The notes below the pieces were generated by a model. It saw only the letters and a program-made list of their open reading frames with translations. It did not search any database and was not told where the DNA came from. From the NCBI GenBank assembly GCA_025054655.1, contig JANWZL010000048.1:1-37876 (forward strand): a stretch of DNA of 37,876 nt, written 5' to 3'. The translations under genes were made by a program, and so were the position numbers. Shown piece after piece: positions 11,331 through 24,310 of this stretch. The DNA is from Thiobacillaceae bacterium. GTDB taxonomy: Bacteria > Pseudomonadota > Gammaproteobacteria > Burkholderiales > Thiobacillaceae. Each line of letters starts with the position of its first letter. Positions within the stretch are counted from its first letter, which is position 1.

Positions 11331-14219
11331 TCACTGGCACGCCTCGCATTCCTCGTAGCCCGCATCGCCCGGCCGCAGGCTGCAGAACTTGCCGGCCGCC
11401 TCGGGGGCGTGCAGGGGCTGGCGCAGGGGGGAGGCGGCGAGCCCCCCGCCGGCGGGCTGCGGCACGGTGCTGGGCACGGCGTTCAACTCGCCGCCGCGGC
11501 CGGTGGATTTCTCCGCATGTGTGGCGGCGAGTGCGCGCAGGTAGTAGGTGGTCTTCAGCCCCCGCACCCAGGCGAGCTTGTAGGTCTCGTCCAGCTTCTT
11601 GCCGCTGGCGCCGTGGAAGTAGAGGTTGAGGCTTTGCGCCTGGTCGATCCATTTCTGCCGGCGGGCGGCGGCCTCGATGAGCCAGGCGGGGTCGATCTCG
11701 AAGGCGGTGGCGTAGAGGGTGCGTAGCTCCTGAGGGATGCGGTCGATGCGGGCGAGCGAGCCGTCGAAGTACTTGAGGTCCGCCACCATCACTTCGTCCC
11801 ACAGGTTGAGCTGCTTGAGGTCACGCACCAGGTATTGGTTGACTACGGTGAACTCGCCCGAGAGGTTGGATTTGACGTAGAGATTCTGGTAGGTAGGCTC
11901 GATCGAGGCCGACACGCCGACGATGTTGGCGATGGTGGCGGTGGGGGCGATGGCGAGGCAGTTGGAGTTGCGCATGCCCACGGTCATGATGCGTTGCCGC
12001 AGCGCCGCCCAGTCGAGCCGTTCGGTCAGATCCACCTCCACGTAGCCGCCGCGCTCCTCTGCGAGCAGGCGCAGGCTGTCCTGCGGCAGGATGCCGCGGC
12101 TCCACAGCGAGCCCTGGAAGGTGGAATAGCGGCCGCGCTCCTCCGCCAGCTCCGTGCTCGCCCAGTAGGCATAGTAGGCCACCGCCTCCATGGAGCGATC
12201 GGCAAACTCCACCGCCTCGGGGCTCGCATAGGGGATGCGCAGGACGTGCAGGCAGTCCTGGAAGCCCATGATACCCAGGCCCACCGGCCGGTGGCGCAGG
12301 TTGGAATTGCGCGCCTTGCCCACCGCGTAGTAGTTGAGGTCGATCACGTTGTCCAGCATGCGCATGGCGGTGCGGATGGTACGGGCGAGCTTGTCCAGGT
12401 CCAGACCGCCGTCCTTCAAGTGGTTGACCAGGTTGATAGAACCCAGGTTGCACACGGCGATCTCCTGGTCGTTCGTGTGCAGGGTGATCTCGGTGCACAG
12501 GTTGGAGGAATGCACCACACCCACGTGCTGGTTGGTGTAGCGGATGTTGCAGGCGTCTTTGAAGGTGATCCAGGGGTGGCCGGTCTCGAACAGCATGGAC
12601 AGCATCTTGCGCCACAGGGCCACGGCAGAGACCTTTTTGTACAGCTTGATCTCACCGCGCGCGGCCTGCTCCTCGTAGCGCAGGTAGGCCTCCTCGAAGG
12701 CGCGGCCCACCTTGTCGTGCAGGTCCGGCACGTCCGAGGGCGAAAACAGCGTCCATTCGCCGTTTTCCATCACCCGTTTCATGAACAGGTCCGGCACCCA
12801 GTTGGCGGTGTTCATGTCGTGCGTGCGGCGGCGGTCGTCGCCGGTGTTTTTGCGCAGCTCGAGGAATTCCTCGATGTCCAGGTGCCAGGTCTCCAGATAG
12901 GCACACACCGCCCCCTTGCGTTTGCCGCCCTGATTGACCGCCACCGCGGTGTCGTTGGCCACCTTGAGGAAAGGCACCACGCCCTGGCTCTTGCCGTTGG
13001 TGCCCTTGATGTGTGAGCCCAGCGCCCGCACCCGCGTCCAGTCGTTGCCCAGCCCCCCGGCGAACTTCTGCAGCAGGGCGTTTTCCTTGATGCCCTGGTA
13101 GATGCCGTCGAGGTCGTCGGGGATGGTGGTGAGATAGCAGGAGGACAGCTGCGGGTGGCGCGTGCCGGAGTTGAACAGGGTGGGGGTGCTGGCCATGTAG
13201 TCGAAGCTGGACAGCACCTCATAGAACTCGATGGCGCGCGCCTCGCGGTCGATCTCGTTCAACGCCAGCCCCATCGCCACGCGCATGAAGAAGGCCTGTG
13301 GCAGCTCGATGCGCCGTTCGTTGACGTGCAGGAAATAGCGGTCGTACAGGGTCTGCAGCCCCAGGTACTGGAACTTGAGGTCGCGCTCGGGCTTGAGGGC
13401 CGCGGCCAGCCGTTCGAGGTCGAACTGGCCGAGACGCTCGTCGAGCAGTTCCGCCGCGATGCCCTGGCGGATGAACTGCGGGAAGTACTCGGCATAACGC
13501 GCGGCCATGTCGGCCTGGGAGACCTCCTCGCCCAGCACCTCGCGGCGGATGGTATGCAGCAGCAGCCGGGCGGTGACCTGGCTGTATTCGGGATCCTTCT
13601 CGATCAGGGCGCGCGCGGCGAGGATCAGGGACTTGTGCACCTCCTCCAGGGGCACGCCGTCGTAGAGATCACGCAGGCTCACCTGCAGGATGGCCTGCGG
13701 GTCGGTGTGCGGCAGACCCTCACAGGCCGCCTCGACCAGGCGCCTGAGCGCCGGCAGGTCGAGCGGGCGGCGCTCGCCCGCGACGGTGCAGGTCAGGGTC
13801 TGCTCCTGCACCTGCTGCTGCTTGAGCCGTGCCCGCTCCTCGGCGCGTTTCTCGCGATAGAGCACATAGGCGCGCGCCACCTCGTGCTCGCCCGAGCGCA
13901 TCAGCGCCAGCTCGACCTGGTCCTGGATGTCCTCGATGTGGAAGGTGCCGCCCTCGGGCTGCCGGCGCATGAGGGCGGCCACCACGTTCTGCGTGAGCTG
14001 CTCCACCAGCTCGCGGATGCGGGCACTGGCCGCGGCCTGGCTGCCGTTGACGGCGATGAAGGCCTTGGTCATGGCCACGGCGATCTTCGCAGGTTCGAAG
14101 CCCACCACCGCGCCATTCCTGCGGATGACGCGGTAGTTGGCGTAGGGCGAGGCAGGTGCGGGCGCGGCGACGGACAAGGCGGTGTCGGCCAGCGGCGGGT
14201 AATCGGTGGCGAGCTGCAT
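11331..14219 (-). CDS. nrdA: Class I ribonucleotide reductase, alpha (catalytic) subunit
   Basis: The 962-aa catalytic subunit reduces ribonucleoside diphosphates to deoxyribonucleotides together with NrdB. An N-terminal ATP-cone starts near YRVIRRNGAVVGFEPAKIA (residues about 28-120), with a second cone-like segment near 150-235, as in the long Pseudomonas-type NrdA. The catalytic core includes HSSNLCTEI and ASIEPTYQN, and the C-terminus ends with the redox-active pair in EECEACQ. The ATG at 14219 has a strong AGGAGG ribosome binding site. It is the first gene of an unusual operon that continues with the 81-aa ORF, SSB-like gene, HEPN, MNT and nrdB. Two NrdR boxes overlap its promoter, so repression by NrdR-ATP/dATP is expected. 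Confidence 0.97.
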   Translation of the reverse strand: MQLATDYPPLADTALSVAAPAPASPYANYRVIRRNGAVVGFEPAKIAVAMTKAFIAVNGSQAAASARIRELVEQLTQNVVAALMRRQPEGGTFHIEDIQDQVELALMRSGEHEVARAYVLYREKRAEERARLKQQQVQEQTLTCTVAGERRPLDLPALRRLVEAACEGLPHTDPQAILQVSLRDLYDGVPLEEVHKSLILAARALIEKDPEYSQVTARLLLHTIRREVLGEEVSQADMAARYAEYFPQFIRQGIAAELLDERLGQFDLERLAAALKPERDLKFQYLGLQTLYDRYFLHVNERRIELPQAFFMRVAMGLALNEIDREARAIEFYEVLSSFDYMASTPTLFNSGTRHPQLSSCYLTTIPDDLDGIYQGIKENALLQKFAGGLGNDWTRVRALGSHIKGTNGKSQGVVPFLKVANDTAVAVNQGGKRKGAVCAYLETWHLDIEEFLELRKNTGDDRRRTHDMNTANWVPDLFMKRVMENGEWTLFSPSDVPDLHDKVGRAFEEAYLRYEEQAARGEIKLYKKVSAVALWRKMLSMLFETGHPWITFKDACNIRYTNQHVGVVHSSNLCTEITLHTNDQEIAVCNLGSINLVNHLKDGGLDLDKLARTIRTAMRMLDNVIDLNYYAVGKARNSNLRHRPVGLGIMGFQDCLHVLRIPYASPEAVEFADRSMEAVAYYAYWASTELAEERGRYSTFQGSLWSRGILPQDSLRLLAEERGGYVEVDLTERLDWAALRQRIMTVGMRNSNCLAIAPTATIANIVGVSASIEPTYQNLYVKSNLSGEFTVVNQYLVRDLKQLNLWDEVMVADLKYFDGSLARIDRIPQELRTLYATAFEIDPAWLIEAAARRQKWIDQAQSLNLYFHGASGKKLDETYKLAWVRGLKTTYYLRALAATHAEKSTGRGGELNAVPSTVPQPAGGGLAASPLRQPLHAPEAAGKFCSLRPGDAGYEECEACQ

Positions 14220-14447: not shown

Positions 14448-15302
14448 ATGCGCAACACCGCCGTGCTGCTCGTCTCCTGCCCCGACCGCAAGGGGCTGGT
14501 GGCGGCCATCGCCAACTTCCTCTACCAGCACGATGCCAACATCCTGCACGCCGACCAGCACCAAGACGCCGAGGCGGGCCTGTTCCTGATGCGGGTGGAG
14601 TGGGACCTGGCCGGCTTCGACTTGGGGCTGCACCGCTTCGGCGAGGCCTTCGCGCCCGTGGCTGCGCAGTACGAGCTGCGCTGGGAGCTCAAGCTCTCCA
14701 GCGTGAAGCCGCGCATGGCCATCTTCGTGTCCCGGCAGGACCATTGCCTGGCCGACCTGCTCTACCGCTGGCAGGCCGGCGAGCTCTACTGCGAGGTCCC
14801 CCTGGTCATCAGCAACCACCCCGACACCCATTGGCTGGCCGAGGCCTACCAGGTCCCTTTCCACCACCTGCCGGTCACCCGCGAGACCAAGGCCGAGGTG
14901 GAGGCGGCGCAACTGGCGTTGCTGGAGGCGCACCGGGTGGACTTCGTGGTGCTGGCCCGCTACATGCAGGTGCTCTCACCCGCATTCGTGGCCCGCTACC
15001 CCAACCGCATCATCAACATCCACCATTCCTTCCTACCCGCCTTCGACGGTGCGCGGCCCTACGAGCGCGCCTACGCGCGCGGGGTGAAGCTCATCGGCGC
15101 CACTAGCCATTACGTGACCGAGGTGCTGGACGACGGTCCCATCATCGAGCAGGACGTCACCCGCATCTCGCACCGCGACGACCTGGCCGACCTCAAACAG
15201 AAGGGGGCGGACCTGGAGAAGGTGGTGCTCTCCCGCGCGGTGCGCTGGCACATCGACAACCGCGTGCTGGTCTATGGTAATAAGACGGTGGTGTTCGATT
15301 GA
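14448..15302 (+). CDS. purU: Formyltetrahydrofolate deformylase
   Basis: PurU hydrolyses 10-formyltetrahydrofolate to formate and tetrahydrofolate, balancing one-carbon pools and supplying formate for PurT. The 284-aa protein begins with an ACT domain (VLLVSCPDRKGLVAAIANFL, residues about 5-85) followed by a formyltransferase-like domain with INIHHSFLPAF near residues 187-197 and DDGPIIEQDV near 227-236, as in PurU. The length matches the family. The divergent nrdA promoter region lies upstream. Copy 2 of the MITE-like element begins directly after its stop codon, so the element may shape the 3' end of the transcript. Confidence 0.95.
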   Translation: MRNTAVLLVSCPDRKGLVAAIANFLYQHDANILHADQHQDAEAGLFLMRVEWDLAGFDLGLHRFGEAFAPVAAQYELRWELKLSSVKPRMAIFVSRQDHCLADLLYRWQAGELYCEVPLVISNHPDTHWLAEAYQVPFHHLPVTRETKAEVEAAQLALLEAHRVDFVVLARYMQVLSPAFVARYPNRIINIHHSFLPAFDGARPYERAYARGVKLIGATSHYVTEVLDDGPIIEQDVTRISHRDDLADLKQKGADLEKVVLSRAVRWHIDNRVLVYGNKTVVFD

Positions 15303-15513: not shown

Positions 15514-15753
15514 ATGGCGCCGACCGTTGTGCGTGCGGGCCCCTTTCGGTTGTTCTTTTTCTCGCGCGAGGAGCCCAGGATGCATGTCCATGTCACTCAT
15601 CCCAACGGGGAGGCCAAGTTCTGGCTCGAACCGAGGGTCGCACTCGCGACGTACACCGGGTTGTCGCCCAGGGAACTCGCGGCAGCGGAGTCCGTCGTGC
15701 GCGATCATGTTGAGGAGATCATCGATGCCTGGCACCGTCACTTCGGCCGTTGA
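15514..15753 (+). CDS. DUF4160 domain protein
   Basis: A 79-aa protein matching the DUF4160 pattern: an N-terminal RLFFFSREE segment, then MHVHVTHPNGEAKFWLEP and LSPRELAAAESVVRDHVEEIIDAWHRHFG. Its function is not established. DUF4160 genes are commonly paired with DUF2442 genes, and the pair has been proposed to be a toxin-antitoxin-like module; the downstream gene here is DUF2442 and overlaps it by 29 bp. The start at 15514 gives the family N-terminus, but its ribosome binding site is weak. Confidence 0.8.
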   Translation: MAPTVVRAGPFRLFFFSREEPRMHVHVTHPNGEAKFWLEPRVALATYTGLSPRELAAAESVVRDHVEEIIDAWHRHFGR

Positions 15754-16069
15754 GGTCACACACGTCGGCAGACATGGATTCTGGCTCCTGCTTGGCGAAG
15801 AGGAGCTGTTGGTGCCCTTTGCGGCATTTCCCTGGTTTAGACAGGCCACCATCGATCAGCTATGCGAAGTCGAGCGTCCCAGCCCGGATCATCTATACTG
15901 GCCGCAGCTCGACATCGATCTGTCCATCGACTCCATACGCCATCCCGAGCGCTACCCCTTGGTGTCCAGGTTGACGCCCACGGGTGTGAAAGCGTCACCC
16001 ACGGCAATGCCCGATGCCGATCTTGGCGCAAACGGGGTGGATCACCCACTCTCGTCATCCAGCCGCTGA
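15725..16069 (+). CDS. DUF2442 domain protein
   Basis: A 114-aa protein whose first about 80 residues match DUF2442: VTHVGRHGFWLLLGEEELLVPFAAFPWF, then HLYWPQLDIDLSIDSIRHPERYPLV, the usual end of the family. About 30 further residues are atypical and may be a read-through tail gained by loss of the original stop. It overlaps the DUF4160 gene by 29 bp in another frame, the usual tight arrangement of this pair. Function unknown. The nitroreductase gene starts 12 bp downstream and may be co-transcribed. Confidence 0.8.
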   Translation: MPGTVTSAVEVTHVGRHGFWLLLGEEELLVPFAAFPWFRQATIDQLCEVERPSPDHLYWPQLDIDLSIDSIRHPERYPLVSRLTPTGVKASPTAMPDADLGANGVDHPLSSSSR

Positions 16070-16081
16070 TCTGTCGGAGCC

Positions 16082-16756
16082 ATGAGCGACCGCCATCTCG
16101 ACCCTGCAACCCTGATCAAGGCCTTCCATTTCCGCCACGCCTGCAAACAGTTCGACCCCGAGCGGGTGATCCCCGCCGAGGACTTCGCCGCCATCCTGGA
16201 GGCCGGGCGGCTGTCGCCCAGCTCGTTCGGCTTCGAACCCTGGCGCTTCCTGGTCATCCAGGACCGGGCGCTGCGCGAGGCACTGGCCGAGGTCTCTTGG
16301 GGGGCGCGCACCCAGTTCCCCAGCGCGAGCCACGTGGTGGCCATCCTCGCGCGCAAGGACCTGCGCTGGGACAGCGCCTACCTGGGCGAGCACATGCGCG
16401 AGGTCAAGGGCCTCGACGAGGCGGCGATCGGCGCCCGGCGTGAACGCATACGCGCCTTCCAGCAGCACGACTTCCGCCTGTTCGACTGCCCCGAGGGTCT
16501 GTTCGACTGGGCCTGCCGGCAGACCTATATCGCGCTGGCCAACATGATGACGGCGGCGGCGCTGTTGGGCATCGATTCCTGCCCCTGCGAGGGGTTCAAC
16601 CGGCGCGACGCGGAAGGGGTGCTCGCTGCACGCGACCTGCTGGATCGGCGCGTGTGGGGGCTGGCGGTGATGGTCTCTTTCGGCTACCGGCTCGCCCCCG
16701 CCCCGGCCAAGACACGCTGGCCGTCCGAGCGGGTGATCCACTGGATCGATGCGTAG
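16082..16756 (+). CDS. Nitroreductase-family NAD(P)H oxidoreductase (NfsB-like)
   Basis: A 224-aa FMN-dependent oxidoreductase of the NfsB/YdgI group. RHACKQFDP near the N-terminus, LSPSSFGFEPWRFLVI (residues about 45-60, FMN-binding), SASHVVAILARKD and the TYIALANMMTAAALLGIDSCPCEGF helix and loop match the family, and the length is typical. It transfers hydride from NAD(P)H to quinones, nitro compounds or flavins; the physiological substrate is unknown. It begins 12 bp after DUF2442 with GGAG before the ATG and ends 9 bp before the fatty-acid methyltransferase gene. The second spacing suggests an operon in which it could supply reducing equivalents to the lipid-modifying pair. Confidence 0.9.
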   Translation: MSDRHLDPATLIKAFHFRHACKQFDPERVIPAEDFAAILEAGRLSPSSFGFEPWRFLVIQDRALREALAEVSWGARTQFPSASHVVAILARKDLRWDSAYLGEHMREVKGLDEAAIGARRERIRAFQQHDFRLFDCPEGLFDWACRQTYIALANMMTAAALLGIDSCPCEGFNRRDAEGVLAARDLLDRRVWGLAVMVSFGYRLAPAPAKTRWPSERVIHWIDA

Positions 16757-16765
16757 GGGGCGGGC

Positions 16766-17971
16766 ATGGCCGGGGTGCGCAAGCTGCTCGCCGAGGCCGC
16801 CGAGCGCACCGACATCCCGTTCCGGGTGGTCTTCCCGGACGGGTCCGAATTCCGCCACGGGCGCGATGCGCCGGCCTTCAGCCTGATCCTGCGCAACCGC
16901 CGCGCCAGCCGGCGGGCGCTGCTGTACGGCCACACGGGGCTGATCGAGGCCTATTTCGCCGGCGACCTTACGGTGGAGGGCGACTTCGCCCTCGTCTTCC
17001 GCGCCGGCATGGACATGGACCTGGGCAAGCCGCCGTCGGGCCTGACCAAGCTGCGCAACGACTGGCACGAGTGGCGCCACAGCAACCGCTCGCGCGCCCA
17101 GGCCAAGGCCAACGCCCGCTTCCATTATGGGCTGGGCACCGAGTTCTACCGCCTGTGGCTGGACCGCGACTGGATGATGTACACCTGCGCCTACTGGAAG
17201 GAGGGCACGCACACGCTGGAGCAGGCGCAGTTGAACAAGATCGACCACGTGGCCCGCAAGCTCCGCCTCGCCGCGGGCGAGCGCTTCGTGGACATCGGCT
17301 GCGGTTTCGGCGGTTTCATGTTCCGTGCCGCAAGCGCTTATGGGGCGCAGGGGGTGGGGGTGAACACCACCACCGAGCAGGTGGTGTGGCTGCGCGAAGA
17401 GATCGCGCGGCGTGGGCTGGCCGACCGGTTGCAGGTCATCGAGGCCGATTTCCGCGACATCCCCGGCCAGTACGACAAGGTGGTGTCCATCGGCGTGCTG
17501 GAGCACGCCGGCCGCGACCAGCTCGCCGAGGTGGTGGCGGCGCACGCGCGCGCGCTCAAGCCGGGCGGCCTGGGCATGCTGCATTTCATCGGCCACGTGG
17601 GGGTGTTCGACACCGAGTATTACATCCGCGAATACATCTTTCCCGGCGGCTGGATCCCGAGTCTCGCCGAGACCTTGCAGGCGATGGAGGCGGCCGGGCT
17701 GGAGATCCTGGACGTGGAGAACCTGCGCCGGCACTACGCCCTCACCCTGGACGAGTGGGCGCGCCGCTTCGAGGCCAACTGGCCGCAGATCCAGGCGCTC
17801 GACCGCCGGCGTTTCGATGACCGCTTCTACCGCCAGTGGCGCACCTACCTGTGGTCCTGCGCGGAGATGTTCCGCTCCAGAAACAGCCGCACACACCTGT
17901 TCCAGGTGCTCTTCAGCCGCGGCAACGTGGGCTACGACCACCCCATGAGCCGCAGCTATATGTACGCATGA
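16766..17971 (+). CDS. Cfa/TmsB-like SAM-dependent fatty acid methyltransferase
   Basis: A 401-aa member of the cyclopropane fatty acid synthase superfamily, which methylates double bonds of phospholipid acyl chains with S-adenosylmethionine. Visible Cfa motifs are MMYTCAYW, the SAM-binding VDIGCGFGGFMF, GVLEHAG, LHFIGH, YIFPGGWIPS and the C-terminal RTYLWSCAEMFRSR. Because it is followed with an ATGA overlap by an FAD-binding oxidoreductase, it most resembles TmsB/BfaB, which makes 10-methylene fatty acids, rather than a plain Cfa. That assignment is by context. It is soluble or membrane-peripheral. Confidence 0.85.
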   Translation: MAGVRKLLAEAAERTDIPFRVVFPDGSEFRHGRDAPAFSLILRNRRASRRALLYGHTGLIEAYFAGDLTVEGDFALVFRAGMDMDLGKPPSGLTKLRNDWHEWRHSNRSRAQAKANARFHYGLGTEFYRLWLDRDWMMYTCAYWKEGTHTLEQAQLNKIDHVARKLRLAAGERFVDIGCGFGGFMFRAASAYGAQGVGVNTTTEQVVWLREEIARRGLADRLQVIEADFRDIPGQYDKVVSIGVLEHAGRDQLAEVVAAHARALKPGGLGMLHFIGHVGVFDTEYYIREYIFPGGWIPSLAETLQAMEAAGLEILDVENLRRHYALTLDEWARRFEANWPQIQALDRRRFDDRFYRQWRTYLWSCAEMFRSRNSRTHLFQVLFSRGNVGYDHPMSRSYMYA

Positions 17972-19290
17972 CCCACGCCGACAAGGTCGAGCGGCTGCTG
18001 GCGGCGGTTCGCGCGGCCGACGCCCCGCTGGGCCTGGCCAAGGACACCTCCAACCTGTTCCGCGACCGGCAGGAGGGCCGCAAGGCGCGGCTCGACGTGC
18101 GCGACTTCACCGCGGTCCTGGCGGTGGATGCGGCCGCCGGCTGGGTGGAGGCCGAGGGCATGGTGACCTACGAGCATCTGGTCGACGCCTGTCTGCCCCA
18201 TGGGGTGATGCCGGCGGTGGTGCCGGAGTTGAAGTCCATCACCCTGGGTGGGGCGGCGGCCGGGGTGGGGATCGAGGCCTCCTCGTTCCGCTATGGGCTG
18301 GTGCACGAGACCCTGGCGGAGATCGAGGTCCTGCTGCCCGACGGCCGGCTGGTGGTGGCCACGCCGGACAACGCCCAGGCCGATCTGTTCTTCGGCTTCC
18401 CCAACTCCTATGGCACCCTGGGCTATGCGCTCAGGCTCAGAGCGCGGGTGGTGCCGGTGCGGCCCTATGTGCGCCTGACCCACCACCATTACACCGACCC
18501 CGCGGCTTGCTTTGCCGCGCTGGAGCGCCTGTGCGCGGGGGAGGCCGATTTTCTCGACGGGGTGGTGTTCGGCCCGCGCGAGTTCGTGCTCACCGAGGGC
18601 CACTTCGTCGGGCACGCCCCCTATACCAGCGACTACGGCTTCGAGCACATCTACTACCGCAGCCTGCTCGAGCGCGACGAGGACTATCTCAGCGTGCGCG
18701 ACTTCATCTGGCGCTGGGACACCGACTGGTTCTGGTGTTCGAACAACCTGGGCCTGCAAAACCCCATCCTGCGCCGGCTCGTGGGGCGCAAGCGGCTCAA
18801 TTCGGTCTTCTACACCAAGCTGATGCGGCTCAACAGCCGCTGGCGGCTCACCCACCGCCTCGACCGGCTCATGGGCTGGCACCGTGAATCGGTGATCCAG
18901 GATGTGGACATCCCCATCGCGCACGCGGCCGAGTTCCTCGATTTCCTGCTCGCTGAGATCGGCATCCTGCCCGTGTGGCTGTGCCCCATCCGCCCGCAAG
19001 GCCGCACCTTCACCCTCTACCCGATGCGCAGCGACACCCTCTACGTCAACTTCGGCTTCTGGGACGTGGTGCGCCGGCGCGAGGCCTTCCCGCCCGGCCA
19101 CCACAACCGCCTGATCGAGGCCAAGGTGATGGCCCTGGGCGGCATCAAGTCGCTCTACTCCGACAGTTACTACGACCAGACCACCTTCTGGCGGCTGTAC
19201 GACGGCGCGGCCTACCGCAGGCTCAAGGCGCGCTACGACCCGCACGGGCGCGCACGCGACCTCTATCAGAAGTGCGTGCTCAGGCAGTAG
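17968..19290 (+). CDS. FAD-binding oxidoreductase, TmsA/BfaA-like
   Basis: A 440-aa protein with an N-terminal PCMH-type FAD-binding domain (DTSNLFRDR, then SITLGGAAAGVGIEASSF and the LVHETLAEIEVLLPDG strand), similar to DHCR24-like oxidases and the TmsA/BfaA reductase. In Actinobacteria that enzyme reduces the 10-methylene group made by TmsB to a 10-methyl branch (tuberculostearic-type acids). Related proteobacterial clusters make methylene or furan fatty acids. The start at 17968 overlaps the preceding stop as ATGA, so the two are translationally coupled; longer in-frame starts lie inside the methyltransferase gene. No DUF1365 (TmsC) gene follows. It ends 3 bp from the stop of the convergent arginase-OAT gene. 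Confidence 0.8.
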   Translation: MTHADKVERLLAAVRAADAPLGLAKDTSNLFRDRQEGRKARLDVRDFTAVLAVDAAAGWVEAEGMVTYEHLVDACLPHGVMPAVVPELKSITLGGAAAGVGIEASSFRYGLVHETLAEIEVLLPDGRLVVATPDNAQADLFFGFPNSYGTLGYALRLRARVVPVRPYVRLTHHHYTDPAACFAALERLCAGEADFLDGVVFGPREFVLTEGHFVGHAPYTSDYGFEHIYYRSLLERDEDYLSVRDFIWRWDTDWFWCSNNLGLQNPILRRLVGRKRLNSVFYTKLMRLNSRWRLTHRLDRLMGWHRESVIQDVDIPIAHAAEFLDFLLAEIGILPVWLCPIRPQGRTFTLYPMRSDTLYVNFGFWDVVRRREAFPPGHHNRLIEAKVMALGGIKSLYSDSYYDQTTFWRLYDGAAYRRLKARYDPHGRARDLYQKCVLRQ

Positions 19291-19293
19291 GGG

Positions 19294-21387
19294 TCAGGAG
19301 GCCGCGGGCGGTCCCGGCAGGCCGGCGAAGGCCCGCCGCAGGATGGCGAGGGCGCGCTCGATCTGGGCCGCGGTGATGATGAGCGGTGGGGCGAGCCGCA
19401 GCGTGTGGCCGTGCACCGCGCGGGTGAGCAAGCCTAGGTCCATGAGCCGCAGGGTGAAGGCCTCGGCGTCGATCTCTGGGGCGAGCTCCACCCCGATCAG
19501 CAACCCCTTGCCGCGCACCGCACGGATGGCGGGGTGTCTGATACTGAGCAGACCCTCCATCAGCCGGGCGCCAAGCTGGGCGGCCCGTGCCGGTAGGTCG
19601 AGCGCCTCGATGAGCTCCAGGGCGGCGAGCCCCACGGCGCAGGCGAGCGGGTTGCCGCCGAAGGTGCTGCCGTGGCTGCCGGGGGTGAACACCGCCATCA
19701 CCTCCGCGCGGGCGAGAAACAGCGATATGGGCACAAGCCCCCCGCCCAAGGCCTTGCCCAGGATGAGCCCGTCGGGACGCACCCCCTCGTGCGCGCAGGC
19801 GAGCAGGCGGCCGGTGCGGCCCAGGCCGGTCTGCACCTCGTCGGCAATGAGCAGCACGCCGTGGCGGCGGCAGATCTCGGCGCAGCGGGCGAGCCAGCCC
19901 GGCGGTGGCACGACGATGCCGGCCTCGCCCTGGATGGGTTCGACCAGGAAGGCGGCCGTGTAGGGCGTGATGACCGCCTCCAGGGCCTGCGCGTCGCCGT
20001 AAGGGATCAGCCTGAAGCCGGGCGCATAGGGGCCGAAGCCGTCGCGGTATGCCGGCACGCTGGAAAAACCGATGATGGTGGTGGTGCGGCCGTGAAAGTT
20101 GCCGGCGCAGACGATGATCTCGGCCCGATCCTCCGGCACCCCCTTGACCCGGTAGGCCCAGCGCCGTGCCGCCTTGATCGCCGTCTCCACGCCCTCCGCT
20201 CCGCTGTTCATGGGCAGGGCCCGGTCCATGCCGGTCATGGCGCAGGCGCGGGCGAGGAAAGGGCCCAGCCGATCGTTGTGAAAGGCGCGCGAGGTGAGCG
20301 CCAGCCGCCGCGCCTGTTGACACAAGGCAGCGGTCAAGCGCGGGTGGGCGTGGCCGAAGGCGAGCGCCGAATAGGCCCCCATCATGTCCAGATAGCGGCG
20401 CCCCTCGCTGTCCCACACCCATACGCCGCGCCCGCGTGTGAGCACCACCGGCAGCGGGGCATAGTTAGCGGCACCGAAACGCGCCTCCAGAGCGGGCGCA
20501 GGCGACGGCCCGGCGGGCGGGGCGAGCGCGGCGAGCACCTGAAGCAGCGTCTGCACGGTGCGCCCCTCGACGTCGCGCTGCGGGTTGAATTCGACGATCT
20601 CCACCGCCGTCAGGCGCGGGTCGTCGCGCACCTGTGTCAGCAAGGTGCACACCTCATCGGGGCCAAGCCCCCCAGGTACGGGGGTATTCACCCCGGGCAC
20701 GTAAACCGGATCGAAGGCGTCCAGGTCGAGGCTGATGCCGTAAGGCGCCGCGCCCACCCGCGCCAGCGCCTCGGCGAAGGCGGCGGCAAAACCGCGCCGG
20801 GCCACCTCCGCCGCCGCGATCACCCGCACCCCCAGGCGGTCGAGCAGGGCCCGTTCGGGCCCCTCCCAGGAACGTGCGCCGATCACGGTCACCCGCGCCG
20901 GATCGAGCCGCCGCACCCCTGCCAGCAGCCGGTTCTGGGCCCGCGGCCCCTCGCCCAGGACGAAGGCCAGCGCCATGCCGTGCGGGTTGCCGCTCACGCT
21001 GGTGGCGGGGGTGTGTGCGTCCAGGTGCGCATCGATCCAGATCAGGCCCGGCGCCTGCGCCAGCCCTGCCGCCACCCCCGTCCAGGTGCCCGGGGCGATG
21101 GCGTGGTCGCCGCCGACGATCACCGGCAACCCCTCGCGTTGCGCGATGAGCCTGCGCACCGCACGGGCGAGCCGCCGGTTGAAAGCGGCCAGGGCGCGCA
21201 GTTCGCAGCAGCGCATGGGCGCGGTGAGGATGCCGCGCCAGGCGAGCCGCCCCTGCGCCCACAGCGCAGCCGTGGCCAGGCGCAGCCGCTCGGGCGCGCC
21301 GGCGCTGCCGCCGTGCGGATAGCCCAGCCCGCTGGCCGCACCCAACAGGATGAGCCGGCGTGCCGGCGAATCTGCATCATGGGGCAT
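19294..21387 (-). CDS. Fused arginase - ornithine aminotransferase
   Basis: One 697-aa open frame encodes two complete enzymes. Residues about 10-290 are an arginase/ureohydrolase with GGDH at 92-95, DAHLD at 119-123 and SLDLDAFDP at 219-227 for the dimanganese centre. After an Ala/Pro linker (about 288-300), residues about 305-697 are a class III PLP aminotransferase of the ornithine/acetylornithine type, with NSGAEG at 394-399, EPIQGEAG at 483-490, D516 in IADEV and the PLP lysine K545 in LGKALGGG. Together they convert arginine to ornithine plus urea, then ornithine to glutamate-5-semialdehyde (P5C), which the adjacent PutA can oxidise to glutamate. The ATG at 21387 follows AGGAG; the frame continues upstream of it but would overlap putA. 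I do not know of a characterised fusion of this kind. Confidence 0.93.
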   Translation of the reverse strand: MPHDADSPARRLILLGAASGLGYPHGGSAGAPERLRLATAALWAQGRLAWRGILTAPMRCCELRALAAFNRRLARAVRRLIAQREGLPVIVGGDHAIAPGTWTGVAAGLAQAPGLIWIDAHLDAHTPATSVSGNPHGMALAFVLGEGPRAQNRLLAGVRRLDPARVTVIGARSWEGPERALLDRLGVRVIAAAEVARRGFAAAFAEALARVGAAPYGISLDLDAFDPVYVPGVNTPVPGGLGPDEVCTLLTQVRDDPRLTAVEIVEFNPQRDVEGRTVQTLLQVLAALAPPAGPSPAPALEARFGAANYAPLPVVLTRGRGVWVWDSEGRRYLDMMGAYSALAFGHAHPRLTAALCQQARRLALTSRAFHNDRLGPFLARACAMTGMDRALPMNSGAEGVETAIKAARRWAYRVKGVPEDRAEIIVCAGNFHGRTTTIIGFSSVPAYRDGFGPYAPGFRLIPYGDAQALEAVITPYTAAFLVEPIQGEAGIVVPPPGWLARCAEICRRHGVLLIADEVQTGLGRTGRLLACAHEGVRPDGLILGKALGGGLVPISLFLARAEVMAVFTPGSHGSTFGGNPLACAVGLAALELIEALDLPARAAQLGARLMEGLLSIRHPAIRAVRGKGLLIGVELAPEIDAEAFTLRLMDLGLLTRAVHGHTLRLAPPLIITAAQIERALAILRRAFAGLPGPPAAS

Positions 21388-21402
21388 ATGGCCTGCACTC
21401 CT

Positions 21403-21422
21403 GTCTATATTTCGATATAGAC
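21403..21422. promoter_or_regulatory. 20-bp palindrome between arginase-OAT and putA
   Basis: GTCTATAT-TTCG-ATATAGAC is a perfect 8-4-8 inverted repeat centred in the 52-bp gap between the two divergent starts (16 bp from the arginase-OAT ATG, 18 bp from the putA GTG). It is AT-rich in a GC-rich neighbourhood. It may be a shared operator, or an RNA hairpin with a UUCG loop in the putA leader. The binding protein is unknown, and no regulator gene is adjacent. Confidence 0.65.
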
Positions 21423-21439
21423 CTCGTGCGGGAGGCAGC

Positions 21440-24310
21440 GTGCCTGAGGGTATCGATCCGGTCGTGGACGAGGCGCTCATCCGGGCGATCGGCGAGCGCC
21501 TGCTGGCTGCCGCGCGCGCCGGCAGCGACCTGTTCGACCGCACCAGCCTGCGCGGCTGGCTGCTCACGCGGGCGCTGACGGATGCGCGGCTGCGCACCGG
21601 GCTGTTCCGCTTCGTCGATGTCCTGCCGCAGCTGGACAGCGACGCCCAGGTGGCGGAACACCTGCAGGCCTATCTGCAGGGGGTGGAACTGGCCGGTGCC
21701 ATGGGCCGACTCATCCGCCTGGGCGAGCGGCCGGGTTTCGCCTTCGCCGTGCGGCGGGCGGTGGCGCGTCTGGCCCGGCTGTTCCTGGTGGAGGAGACGC
21801 CGGCGGCCATCGCCCGCCTGCTCGCGCAGCTGCAGCGCCGCGGGCTGCAGGTGAGCCTGGACGCGGTGGGTGAGGCGGTGCTCACCGAGGCCGAGGCCGA
21901 GGCCCATGCGGCGCGGGTGCTCGGGCTCATCGACCGGCTCGCGGGTCGGCCTGGGGCGGACGTCTCGCTCAAGCTGTCGGCCCTGACCGCCCGCTTTGAG
22001 CCCATCGACCCCGAGGGCACGCTGGCGCGGCTGTGGCCGCGTCTGCAGACCATCGCGGCGGCGGCCCAGGCGGCCGGGGTGTCGCTCACCCTGGACATGG
22101 AGCAGTCCGAGTTCAAGCCCCTCATCCAGGCCGCGGCGGCGCGCCTGCGCGCGACCCGGCCGCAGCTGGACCTGGGCGTGGTGGTGCAGGCCTATCTGCG
22201 CGAGGCGCAGGCCGACCTGGAGACGGTGCTCGCCCTGGCGCGTACGGGCGGGCGCAGACTGCGCGTGCGGCTGGTCAAGGGGGCGTATTGGGACTACGAG
22301 CTCGCCTATGCCGCCCAGCGCGCCTGGCGACCAGCGGTACTGACCGAGCGGGCCGCCACCGACGCGCAGTTCGAGCGGCTCAGCCGCGCGCTCATGGCCG
22401 CGCGCGATGCGGTCTATCCCATGATCGCCAGCCACAACCCGCGCAGCCTCGCCCACGCCATCGCTTGCGCGCAGGCGCTGGGCCTCGCGGCCGAGGACTG
22501 GGAGGTGCAGATGCTGCACGGCATGGCCGGGCGGCTCGCCGCTGCAGTGCAGGCGGAGGGGGTGCGCGTGCGCCTGTACGTACCCAGCGGCGACTTGATC
22601 GGCGGCATCGCCTATCTCATCCGGCGGCTGCTGGAGAACACCGCCAACACCTCGGCCCTGCGCCTAGCCCTGCACGGGGCGGAGGCGGCGCTGCTGCTCG
22701 GCGCGCCCCGGCCTGAGCCGGAACAGGCGCAGGCGGCCGCCGCGGGCGGCTACACCCACGCGCCGCTGACCGACTTCAGCCGCGAACCGCAGCGTGCGGC
22801 CCTGCGTGCGGCGCTCGCCGCGGTGCGCACGCGGCTGGGCCAGGACTACCCCCTGCCCGGGCCCGGTGGTGGAGAATGGATCGTCTCCACCAACCCCGCC
22901 CGCCCGGCCGAGGTGGTCGGCCGCGTGCAGGCGGCCACGCCGGCGGCGGTGGCGCAGGCGGTGGAGGCGGCCACGGCCGCTTTCGAGGGCTGGCGTGCGC
23001 TCGGTTTTGCAGGCCGGTCGCGGCTTCTGGAGCAGGCGGCGGCCTTGCTTGAGCGACGCCGGCATGAGTTCGCGGCCTGGATCGTGCTGGAGGCGGGCAA
23101 GCACTGGCGCGAGGCCGACGCCGAGGTGGCCGAGGCGATCGACGCCCACCGCTATTACGCCGCCCAGGCCCGCGCCCTGGAGGGCTGGCGGCCGACCGAA
23201 CACCTGCCCGGCGAGCTGAACGACCTCCGCTACGAGCCGGTGGGCCCGACGGCGGTGATCGCGCCCTGGAACTTCCCGCTCGCCATCCTCGGCGGCATGA
23301 GCGCGGCGGCCCTGGCCGCCGGCTGCCCCGTGCTGCTTAAACCCGCGAGCCTCACCCCGGTCATCGCCTGGCACTACCGCCTATGCCTGCTCGAGGCCGG
23401 CATCCCGCCCGCGGTGGTGGGCTGGCTGCCCGGGGCCGGCGGCACGGTGGGCGAGGCGCTCGTCGCCCAGCCGCAGGTGGCAGCCGTCGCCTTCACCGGC
23501 TCGCGCGCCGTGGGGCTGCGGCTGCTCTCACGGGCGCACAGCCCCCAGCCCGGCCAGCGCCACATCAGGCGTGTGGCCCTGGAGCTGGGCGGCAAGAACG
23601 CCCTCATCGTCGATGACGACGCCGACCTGGACGAGGCGGTCGGCGCCATCCTCGCCTCCGCCTTCGGCTATCAGGGCCAGAAGTGCTCGGCCGCCGCGCG
23701 GCTGATCACCGTCGGCCGGGTGCACGGGCGTCTGCTCGAGCGCCTGGCGCAGGCCCTCGCCGCGCACGACCTGGGTCCGCCCGAGGAGCCGGCCTTCAGT
23801 TTCGGGCCGCTCATCGATGCCCAGGCCCTGTCCAAGGCACAGGGCTACCTGGACCTGGCCCGCGGCGCCGGGCATATCTACTACCAGGGCCCGCCGTTGC
23901 CGGTGGAGACGGAGGGCGGCCATTATTTTCCGCCCGTGCTGGTGACGGACGTCGATCCCGCCCACCGCCTCGCGCGCGAGGAGCTGTTCTGCCCTATCCT
24001 GACGGTGCTGGCCGCCCCGGACTTCGACACCGCGCTCGCCTGGGCGCTCGACTCCGACTATGCCCTCACGGGCGGGGTGATGAGCCGCCATCCGGGCCAT
24101 CTCGCGCTGGCGCGCGAGCGTTTTCGGGTCGGCAACCTCTACCTCAACCGCCGCATCACCGGCGCGCGCATCGGCATCCAACCCTTCGGCGGCACCGCCT
24201 TGTCCGGCAGCGGCATCCCCGCGGGTGGGCCCGATTACCTCAAACAGTTCCTGTGGTCGCGCTGTGTGGCGGAGAACACCGTGCGTCACGGTTTCGTCCC
24301 GCAGCTGTGA
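21440..24310 (+). CDS. putA: PutA: proline dehydrogenase / P5C dehydrogenase
   Basis: A 956-aa bifunctional enzyme that oxidises proline to P5C with FAD (quinone-linked, at the inner membrane) and P5C to glutamate with NAD. The proline dehydrogenase barrel covers about residues 90-430, with LVKGAYWDYE near 278-287 and LYVPSGDLIGGIAYLIRRL near its end. The aldehyde dehydrogenase half covers about 460-956, with APWNFPLAI, the general base in LELGGKN near 715 and catalytic C749 in GQKCSAAARL. It is a short-form PutA without the DNA-binding ribbon-helix-helix domain of the E. coli protein. The GTG start at 21440 has GGGAGG six bases before it; an upstream ATG at 21350 would overlap the arginase-OAT gene and lacks support. 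Divergent partner of the fusion gene. Confidence 0.95.
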   Translation: MPEGIDPVVDEALIRAIGERLLAAARAGSDLFDRTSLRGWLLTRALTDARLRTGLFRFVDVLPQLDSDAQVAEHLQAYLQGVELAGAMGRLIRLGERPGFAFAVRRAVARLARLFLVEETPAAIARLLAQLQRRGLQVSLDAVGEAVLTEAEAEAHAARVLGLIDRLAGRPGADVSLKLSALTARFEPIDPEGTLARLWPRLQTIAAAAQAAGVSLTLDMEQSEFKPLIQAAAARLRATRPQLDLGVVVQAYLREAQADLETVLALARTGGRRLRVRLVKGAYWDYELAYAAQRAWRPAVLTERAATDAQFERLSRALMAARDAVYPMIASHNPRSLAHAIACAQALGLAAEDWEVQMLHGMAGRLAAAVQAEGVRVRLYVPSGDLIGGIAYLIRRLLENTANTSALRLALHGAEAALLLGAPRPEPEQAQAAAAGGYTHAPLTDFSREPQRAALRAALAAVRTRLGQDYPLPGPGGGEWIVSTNPARPAEVVGRVQAATPAAVAQAVEAATAAFEGWRALGFAGRSRLLEQAAALLERRRHEFAAWIVLEAGKHWREADAEVAEAIDAHRYYAAQARALEGWRPTEHLPGELNDLRYEPVGPTAVIAPWNFPLAILGGMSAAALAAGCPVLLKPASLTPVIAWHYRLCLLEAGIPPAVVGWLPGAGGTVGEALVAQPQVAAVAFTGSRAVGLRLLSRAHSPQPGQRHIRRVALELGGKNALIVDDDADLDEAVGAILASAFGYQGQKCSAAARLITVGRVHGRLLERLAQALAAHDLGPPEEPAFSFGPLIDAQALSKAQGYLDLARGAGHIYYQGPPLPVETEGGHYFPPVLVTDVDPAHRLAREELFCPILTVLAAPDFDTALAWALDSDYALTGGVMSRHPGHLALARERFRVGNLYLNRRITGARIGIQPFGGTALSGSGIPAGGPDYLKQFLWSRCVAENTVRHGFVPQL

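Follow-up and report, generated by a model that had tools for sequence, protein, structure and literature searches.

A BfaA/TmsA-type reductase gene paired with a proteobacterial Cfa-family methyltransferase gene suggests a hybrid route to mid-chain methyl-branched fatty acids

The window analyzed in this study (37,876 nucleotides; contig JANWZL010000048.1 of assembly GCA_025054655.1) originates from a Thiobacillaceae bacterium represented by a 2.2-Mb assembly, which is 84% complete. It carries three adjacent genes encoding a nitroreductase-family protein, a Cfa-family methyltransferase (P0002), and a flavin adenine dinucleotide (FAD)-binding protein (P0003) (Table 1). A sequence-only reading of this DNA had described three same-strand open reading frames (ORFs), with a 9-bp gap between the first two and an ATGA overlap between the last two, as a nitroreductase gene preceding a tmsB/tmsA (bfaB/bfaA) pair for 10-methyl-branched fatty acids. 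The ORFs, their coordinates, and both junctions were confirmed in the sequence and by Pfam matches: the TAG stop codon of the nitroreductase gene ends at 16756 and the methyltransferase ATG lies at 16766, and the methyltransferase TGA overlaps the ATG of the FAD gene. We propose that the two-gene unit 16766-19290 probably makes mid-chain methyl-branched membrane fatty acids, with formation of a methylene branch followed by its flavin-dependent reduction.

Table 1. Genes of the locus and their main domain matches.
Feature	Position	Strand	Match and description
Methyltransferase P0002	16766-17971	+	PF02353 CMAS 9e-74; Cfa-family S-adenosylmethionine-dependent acyl methyltransferase of a proteobacterial clade (window clade)
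FAD protein P0003	17968-19290	+	PF01565 FAD_binding_4 1.8e-13; predicted BfaA/TmsA type, vanillyl-alcohol oxidase-like fold
Nitroreductase	16082-16756	+	PF00881 3.5e-26; NAD(P)H/FMN nitroreductase-family oxidoreductase; closest solved sequence 7jh4, 2.7e-67
DUF2442 protein	15725-16069	+	PF10387; in the block between purU and the methyltransferase gene
DUF4160 protein	15580-15753	+	PF13711; in the block between purU and the methyltransferase gene
purU-type gene (formyltetrahydrofolate deformylase)	14448-15302	+	PF00551 and ACT; upstream neighbor of the pair in this family
Ribonucleotide reductase large subunit	11331-14219	-	PF02867, PF00317, PF03477; conserved flank
Arginase-aminotransferase ORF	19294-21396	-	Arginase domain fused to class-III aminotransferase
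putA	21350-24310	+	

P0003 aligned over its full length with 10 actinobacterial BfaA-type proteins at 45-58% identity; the values for the Nonomuraea, Nocardia, and Tsukamurella proteins were 51%, 45%, and 45%, respectively, and the Prescottella protein matched in two pieces at about 47%. The Tsukamurella FAD gene is accompanied by recR, YbaB, an Rv3717-type amidase, an SRPBCC protein, a methyltransferase, and DNA polymerase III, and this neighborhood matches the one that Machida et al. show around bfaAB (PMC5660069). In a quick tree of 69 hand-picked rows, 64 rows including actinobacterial BfaA were separated with a support of 100 from a five-row outgroup sharing 27-28% identity with P0003, with two proteins (L039 and L040; 38-39% identity) branching between the main group and the outgroup and the deeper order inside the group largely unresolved. 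The P0003 model (predicted local distance difference test, pLDDT, 88.1) resembles most closely cytokinin dehydrogenase and DprE1, and the protein matched FAD_binding_4 alone among Pfam families, with no geranylgeranyl reductase (GGR)-like domain matched. A BfaA from Thermomonospora curvata reduced 10-methylene chains in crude extract with NADPH, not NADH (PMC7791843). Based on full-length identity, tree grouping, and the bfaAB neighborhood of the Tsukamurella homolog, the TmsA/BfaA assignment proposed earlier was upheld, and P0003 is predicted to be a BfaA/TmsA-type FAD-dependent methylene-acyl reductase. Since P0003 belongs with BfaA/TmsA, a 10-methyl-type pathway is the best reading of the pair.

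The sequence-only reading had also suggested comparing both proteins with the Tms and Ufa families. While the FAD protein was found with TmsA/BfaA, the methyltransferase was found neither with TmsB nor in the clade of methyltransferases encoded next to DUF1365 genes. P0002 shares 33-37% identity with BfaB, 34-39% with three Cfa proteins, and 33-40% with a TmpB-type set. The quick trees comprised 69, 69, and 109 hand-picked rows; conclusions on methyltransferases use a careful tree of 62 hand-picked rows taken from the 109-row tree. There, the window clade (100/100) was sister to the TmpB-type clade (95/86), and the BfaB clade (100/100) stood apart from it, grouped with a Cfa set that includes the genome's own Cfa, encoded elsewhere. 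Constraining the window clade and BfaB together, a test that follows from the earlier claim, was rejected (approximately unbiased test, p-AU 0.0017), and identification of P0002 as BfaB/TmsB was abandoned on this result, the low identity, and the separate proteobacterial clade. The TmpB-type and DUF1365-adjacent groups are defined by gene neighbors rather than by published sequences, the TmpB-type clade being named by its GGR-like neighbor, with P0002 sister to it and not inside it; the BfaB group is defined by gene order and identity to the Tsukamurella gene. Two loci were left out of the DUF1365-locus comparison, L234 because its gene is that of L009 and L245 because it lacks a methyltransferase of 280 residues. 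The P0002 model (pLDDT 91.5) had Cfa structures (7qos, 5z9o, 6bqc) as its best folds.

A constraint joining all BfaA-linked methyltransferases in one clade, named after inspection of the tree, was likewise rejected (6e-9), and therefore one reductase family is paired with four methyltransferase groups, namely the window type in Pseudomonadota, BfaB in Actinomycetota, the TmpB type in loci L035 and L036, and an E. coli-Cfa type in Nitrospira, Thioalkalivibrio and its relatives, a Deltaproteobacteria metagenome-assembled genome, and several candidate-phylum contigs. Since the window clade has the TmpB-type clade as its sister, we count at least three independent origins rather than surely four. 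Four further genomes (G142, G115, G173, and G224) carry the FAD gene, only 38% identical in G224, without an intact adjacent methyltransferase gene and with a TmpB-clade gene elsewhere in the genome. In G173 (loci L031/L068), a methyltransferase gene with its middle missing lies beside an intact FAD gene.

Locus frequencies describe the best 80 of 593 confirmed stretches encoding the FAD protein. A methyltransferase gene was located directly upstream of the FAD gene on the same strand in 43 of these loci, directly downstream in 15, and in neither position in 22, and because of these counts the adjacency of the two genes is not due to chance. The upstream genes were of the window type (33), the E. 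coli-Cfa type (9), and the TmpB type (1), with two of the 43 split or partial (L087 and L113), and the downstream genes were BfaB (13) or belonged to two contigs with an E. coli-Cfa-type gene; several of the 22 remaining loci end at a contig edge, and in one of them, L117, a window-type gene lies 1.3 kb upstream. The FAD gene came first in 13/13 BfaB-type loci, and the published actinobacterial order is likewise FAD gene first and methyltransferase second, with a 4-bp overlap (PMC5660069). The layout at this locus is thus reversed, methyltransferase first, and does not correspond to the tmsB/tmsA arrangement proposed for it. The pair recurs across Beta- and Gammaproteobacteria, its carriers including Burkholderiales and Thiobacillus-like bacteria and, among cultured organisms, Zeimonas arvi and Variovorax paradoxus VAI-C. 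A BfaA pair is also present in one Thioalkalivibrio locus and in two Nitrospira loci. Candidates for conserved third genes beside the pair were discarded, as the largest clusters look like shadow reading frames of both genes and the one useful match was the ribonucleotide reductase flank.

Several individual loci deviate from the common pattern. BfaA and methyltransferase pairs occur on contigs labeled as Patescibacteria (L115), Woesearchaeota (L119), an unclassified bacterium (L124), and Magasanikbacteria (L133), reflecting either transfer or binning error. A 38-kb Prescottella plasmid (L049) bears two divergent copies of the bfaA-bfaB region, in which both FAD genes and one methyltransferase gene are split over two reading frames, and in L082 two divergent window-type methyltransferase genes lie beside one FAD gene.

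Residues C141, E246, H273, I275, and Y324 of P0002 correspond to C139, E239, H266, I268, and Y317 of E. coli Cfa and are kept in 22/22 sampled window-clade rows. We take Cys139 and Ile268 of E. coli Cfa to be bicarbonate-site residues. Glu239, His266, and Tyr317 have been described as bicarbonate ligands (PMC11387697). Leu245 of P0002 replaces Phe238 of Cfa, the residue preceding the catalytic glutamate. Phenylalanine at this position, a marker proposed here and not a published definition, was found in 0/45 BfaA-linked methyltransferases (Leu 24, Thr 10, Cys 6, Met 5; one of them, from L117, encoded 1.3 kb from its FAD gene) and in 35/35 comparison Cfa-type enzymes. The latter comprise 29 CMAS matches from new loci (top scorers of the class search), three Cfa proteins of the genus, the genome's separate Cfa, E. 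coli Cfa, and the L088 Cfa; no GGR-type gene was seen beside any of the 35 at loose thresholds, four of the loci being shortened by contig ends with their neighbors partly visible. Within the E. coli-type clade, 13/13 enzymes with Phe contrast with 11/11 BfaA-linked enzymes with Cys or Met. TmpB-type enzymes (n=9) have Leu or Ile, as do the TmpB-clade genes of the four genomes mentioned above (Leu in 4/4), and DUF1365-adjacent enzymes (n=14) have Ile (7), Val (4), Phe (2), or Leu (1). The absence of Phe may therefore reflect, as we infer from these alignments, repeated loss of a residue favoring ring closure.

In the proposed pathway, P0002 would methylate a phospholipid-bound monounsaturated chain, and the resulting cation would lose a proton rather than cyclize to a cyclopropane, leaving an exo-methylene branch; the candidate switch is the residue before the catalytic glutamate (Phe in Cfa, Leu in P0002). 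The BfaA-type flavoprotein would then reduce the methylene to a methyl branch, by homology to Thermomonospora BfaA probably with NADPH, yielding most likely 10-methyl-hexadecanoate (10-methyl-16:0) and/or the corresponding branched C18 acid. The nitroreductase would be a lineage-specific upstream insertion, dispensable for this chemistry. Such a pathway would be a hybrid of two described ones, combining a reductase from the actinobacterial bfa pathway with a methyltransferase sister to the tmp-like operon type. The locus resembles bfaAB/tmsAB of Actinomycetota (Machida, 2017; Blitzblau, 2021) in its BfaA homolog, its two adjacent genes, and the 4-bp overlap, and differs in the clade and low identity of the methyltransferase, the gene order, and the proteobacterial host. 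With tmpBA of Desulfobacteraceae, Marinobacter, and Thiohalospira (Blitzblau, 2021) it shares the order, methyltransferase first and reductase second, with the window methyltransferase clade sister to the TmpB-type clade and not part of it; TmpA is GGR-like and not homologous to BfaA (PMC7791843).

Phenotypes recorded at the genus level agree with this pathway: Thioalkalivibrio versutus makes 10-Me-C16:0 (PMC8092127) and Nitrospira makes 11-methyl-16:0 (PMC5516240). Because the profiled strains differ from the strains of the loci compared, this agreement amounts to consistency and not proof. For Betaproteobacteria, only unresolved MIDI 'summed feature 9' values were found for 10-methyl acids in the literature examined, and no fatty acid data for Zeimonas were found among the papers listed in a literature search.

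A number of observations weigh against the proposed pathway. T. nitratis ALJ2, which may or may not carry bfaA, makes no branched fatty acids (PMC8092127), Thioalkalivibrio and Nitrospira use a methyltransferase clade different from that of the window, and the literature searched held no fatty acid profile of the host or of any carrier of a window-type methyltransferase. In E. coli, TmpA showed no activity (PMC7791843), and therefore such pairs do not always work as proposed. In the window's own assembly, fabA, a candidate source of the monounsaturated substrate, gave only a weak, sub-cut-off match. As regards the switch position, 2/14 DUF1365-adjacent methyltransferases, possibly makers of methylated non-cyclopropane chains, have Phe, and Phe by itself may therefore not dictate ring closure; 29 of the 35 Phe-bearing enzymes are top CMAS scorers, biased towards canonical Cfa; and at loose thresholds the L088 Cfa is one gene removed from a FAD gene, and weak DUF1365-type matches lie near two other comparison enzymes (L230 and L207). 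The residue counts are counts of sequences, representing perhaps three independent events.

It is unlikely that P0002 is a plain cyclopropane synthase and P0003 acts on a different substrate, such as a polyprenyl or sterol-like lipid, in the manner of its fold relatives DprE1 and cytokinin dehydrogenase. Like E. coli-type Cfa, P0002 has the Cfa fold and all residues aligned with the bicarbonate site, and the listed fold relatives of P0003 are oxidases or dehydrogenases, which fits this explanation; however, another Cfa is already encoded in the genome, P0002 has Leu in place of the Phe found throughout the comparison enzymes, P0003 is far closer to BfaA-type proteins than to its five outgroup relatives, and the linkage of a methyltransferase gene to this FAD gene recurs over many families. 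A furan fatty acid (Ufa-type) pathway or one ending at a methylene product, which the sequence-only reading had offered as an alternative, is very unlikely. The ufaM-ufaD-ufaO system (Lemke, 2020) likewise combines a Cfa-family methyltransferase with a flavoprotein acting on phospholipid chains, and a DUF1365-adjacent methyltransferase locus is present in each of the three other genus members searched (G001, G003, and G002; loci L243, L244, and L246). UfaD has, though, been described as an NAD-FAD-binding, phytoene-desaturase-like protein and DUF1365 as UfaO (PMC7380195), whereas P0003 is a FAD_binding_4 protein; moreover, no DUF1365 gene follows the pair, as had been noted, or was found anywhere in the 84%-complete assembly, and P0002, apart from lying outside the DUF1365-adjacent clade, keeps His at the Cfa His266 position, where 14/14 sampled members of that clade have Gln.

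A three-gene cassette in which the nitroreductase would provide the FAD reductase with reduced flavin or electrons, again a suggestion of the sequence-only reading, appears quite unlikely. The 9-bp spacing on the same strand suggests co-transcription, and both bfa carriers of the genus (G000 and G002) have the nitroreductase gene beside the pair, while its two non-carriers (G001 and G003) have only a 42-43% paralog. Among the loci examined, however, the nitroreductase adjoins the pair only in the window and in its sister G002, in which the copy is cut by the contig end. The conservation of this neighbor, which the earlier reading had put forward as a check, was not found in the 80 best loci: none had a nitroreductase match, with at least 700 nucleotides beyond the upstream methyltransferase covered in 40/43. 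A match of at least 53% identity was present in 13 of the 41 genomes searched (the window's own included; G002 at 80% over the cut end), four with bfaA and nine without a bfaA match (orthologs of 53-59%), and in G013 and G016 the ortholog and bfaA are on different contigs, while the bfaA carrier G046 had no match at this threshold; the bfaA carriers G025, G032, and G059 were outside this search. In addition, published bfaAB gave a 10-methyl acid in E. coli from two genes alone (PMC7791843, PMC5660069). The nitroreductase was accordingly rejected as a conserved pathway gene.

Comparison of gene orders indicates how this arrangement may have arisen. The window reads ribonucleotide reductase, purU, DUF4160, DUF2442, nitroreductase, methyltransferase, and FAD gene, whereas G025 keeps the same neighborhood without the nitroreductase (ribonucleotide reductase, purU, methyltransferase, and FAD gene). 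In G032, the end of purU precedes the pair; purU is also a neighbor in L011 and in L010, where the contig end truncates it. The ribonucleotide reductase flank recurs in L011, L077, and L079, and in the latter two about 0.9 kb without a match to the window genes separates it from the pair. The simplest history suggested by these orders is that, in the lineage of the window, the two DUF genes and the nitroreductase gene were inserted after purU and ahead of the pair, and the nitroreductase is probably co-transcribed now, yet a late insertion and no conserved part of the pathway. Given the contrast within the genus, with two carriers having the gene and two non-carriers lacking it, the nitroreductase and the pair may alternatively have been gained or lost as one block, leaving room for a recent accessory role. 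The overlapping DUF4160/DUF2442 pair (15580-16069, forward strand) is, at a guess, toxin-antitoxin-like or mobile.

The chemistry of the proposed hybrid pathway is already known; the combination of BfaA with a window-type methyltransferase is new to the literature searched. Blitzblau et al. (PMC7791843) describe bfa from actinomycetes and tmp with the unrelated TmpA, and no proteobacterial BfaA or hybrid pairing was found in a search whose scope excluded patents and most subscription journals. In a broader proposal, which we consider evenly balanced between right and wrong, BfaA/TmsA would be a portable second step that evolution has combined with at least three methyltransferase lineages and probably with four (BfaB, window, TmpB-type, and E. 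coli-Cfa-type), all without the cyclopropane-synthase Phe, that residue would be part of the cyclopropane/methylene switch, and many Beta- and Gammaproteobacteria and Nitrospira would make mid-chain methyl fatty acids via undescribed hybrid pathways. A pathway described from Actinobacteria would thereby be extended, in hybrid form, to a broad range of proteobacteria and Nitrospira, and the Cfa family would gain a one-residue hypothesis for cyclopropane versus methylene formation. The distribution may also bear on marker use: in soil, 10-methyl fatty acids are used as markers of actinobacteria (PMC3893180), 10Me16:0 is used as a marker of Desulfobacter (PMC4737920), and the gene pair is also present in Burkholderiales and Thiobacillus-like bacteria.

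Downstream of the pair, an arginase domain is fused to a class-III aminotransferase in one ORF, which is divergent from putA and apparently overlaps its start (Table 1). This ORF was discarded as a synteny marker, since five related genomes match the aminotransferase half only (35-44%). Together with putA, the fusion possibly forms a compact arginine-to-glutamate route.

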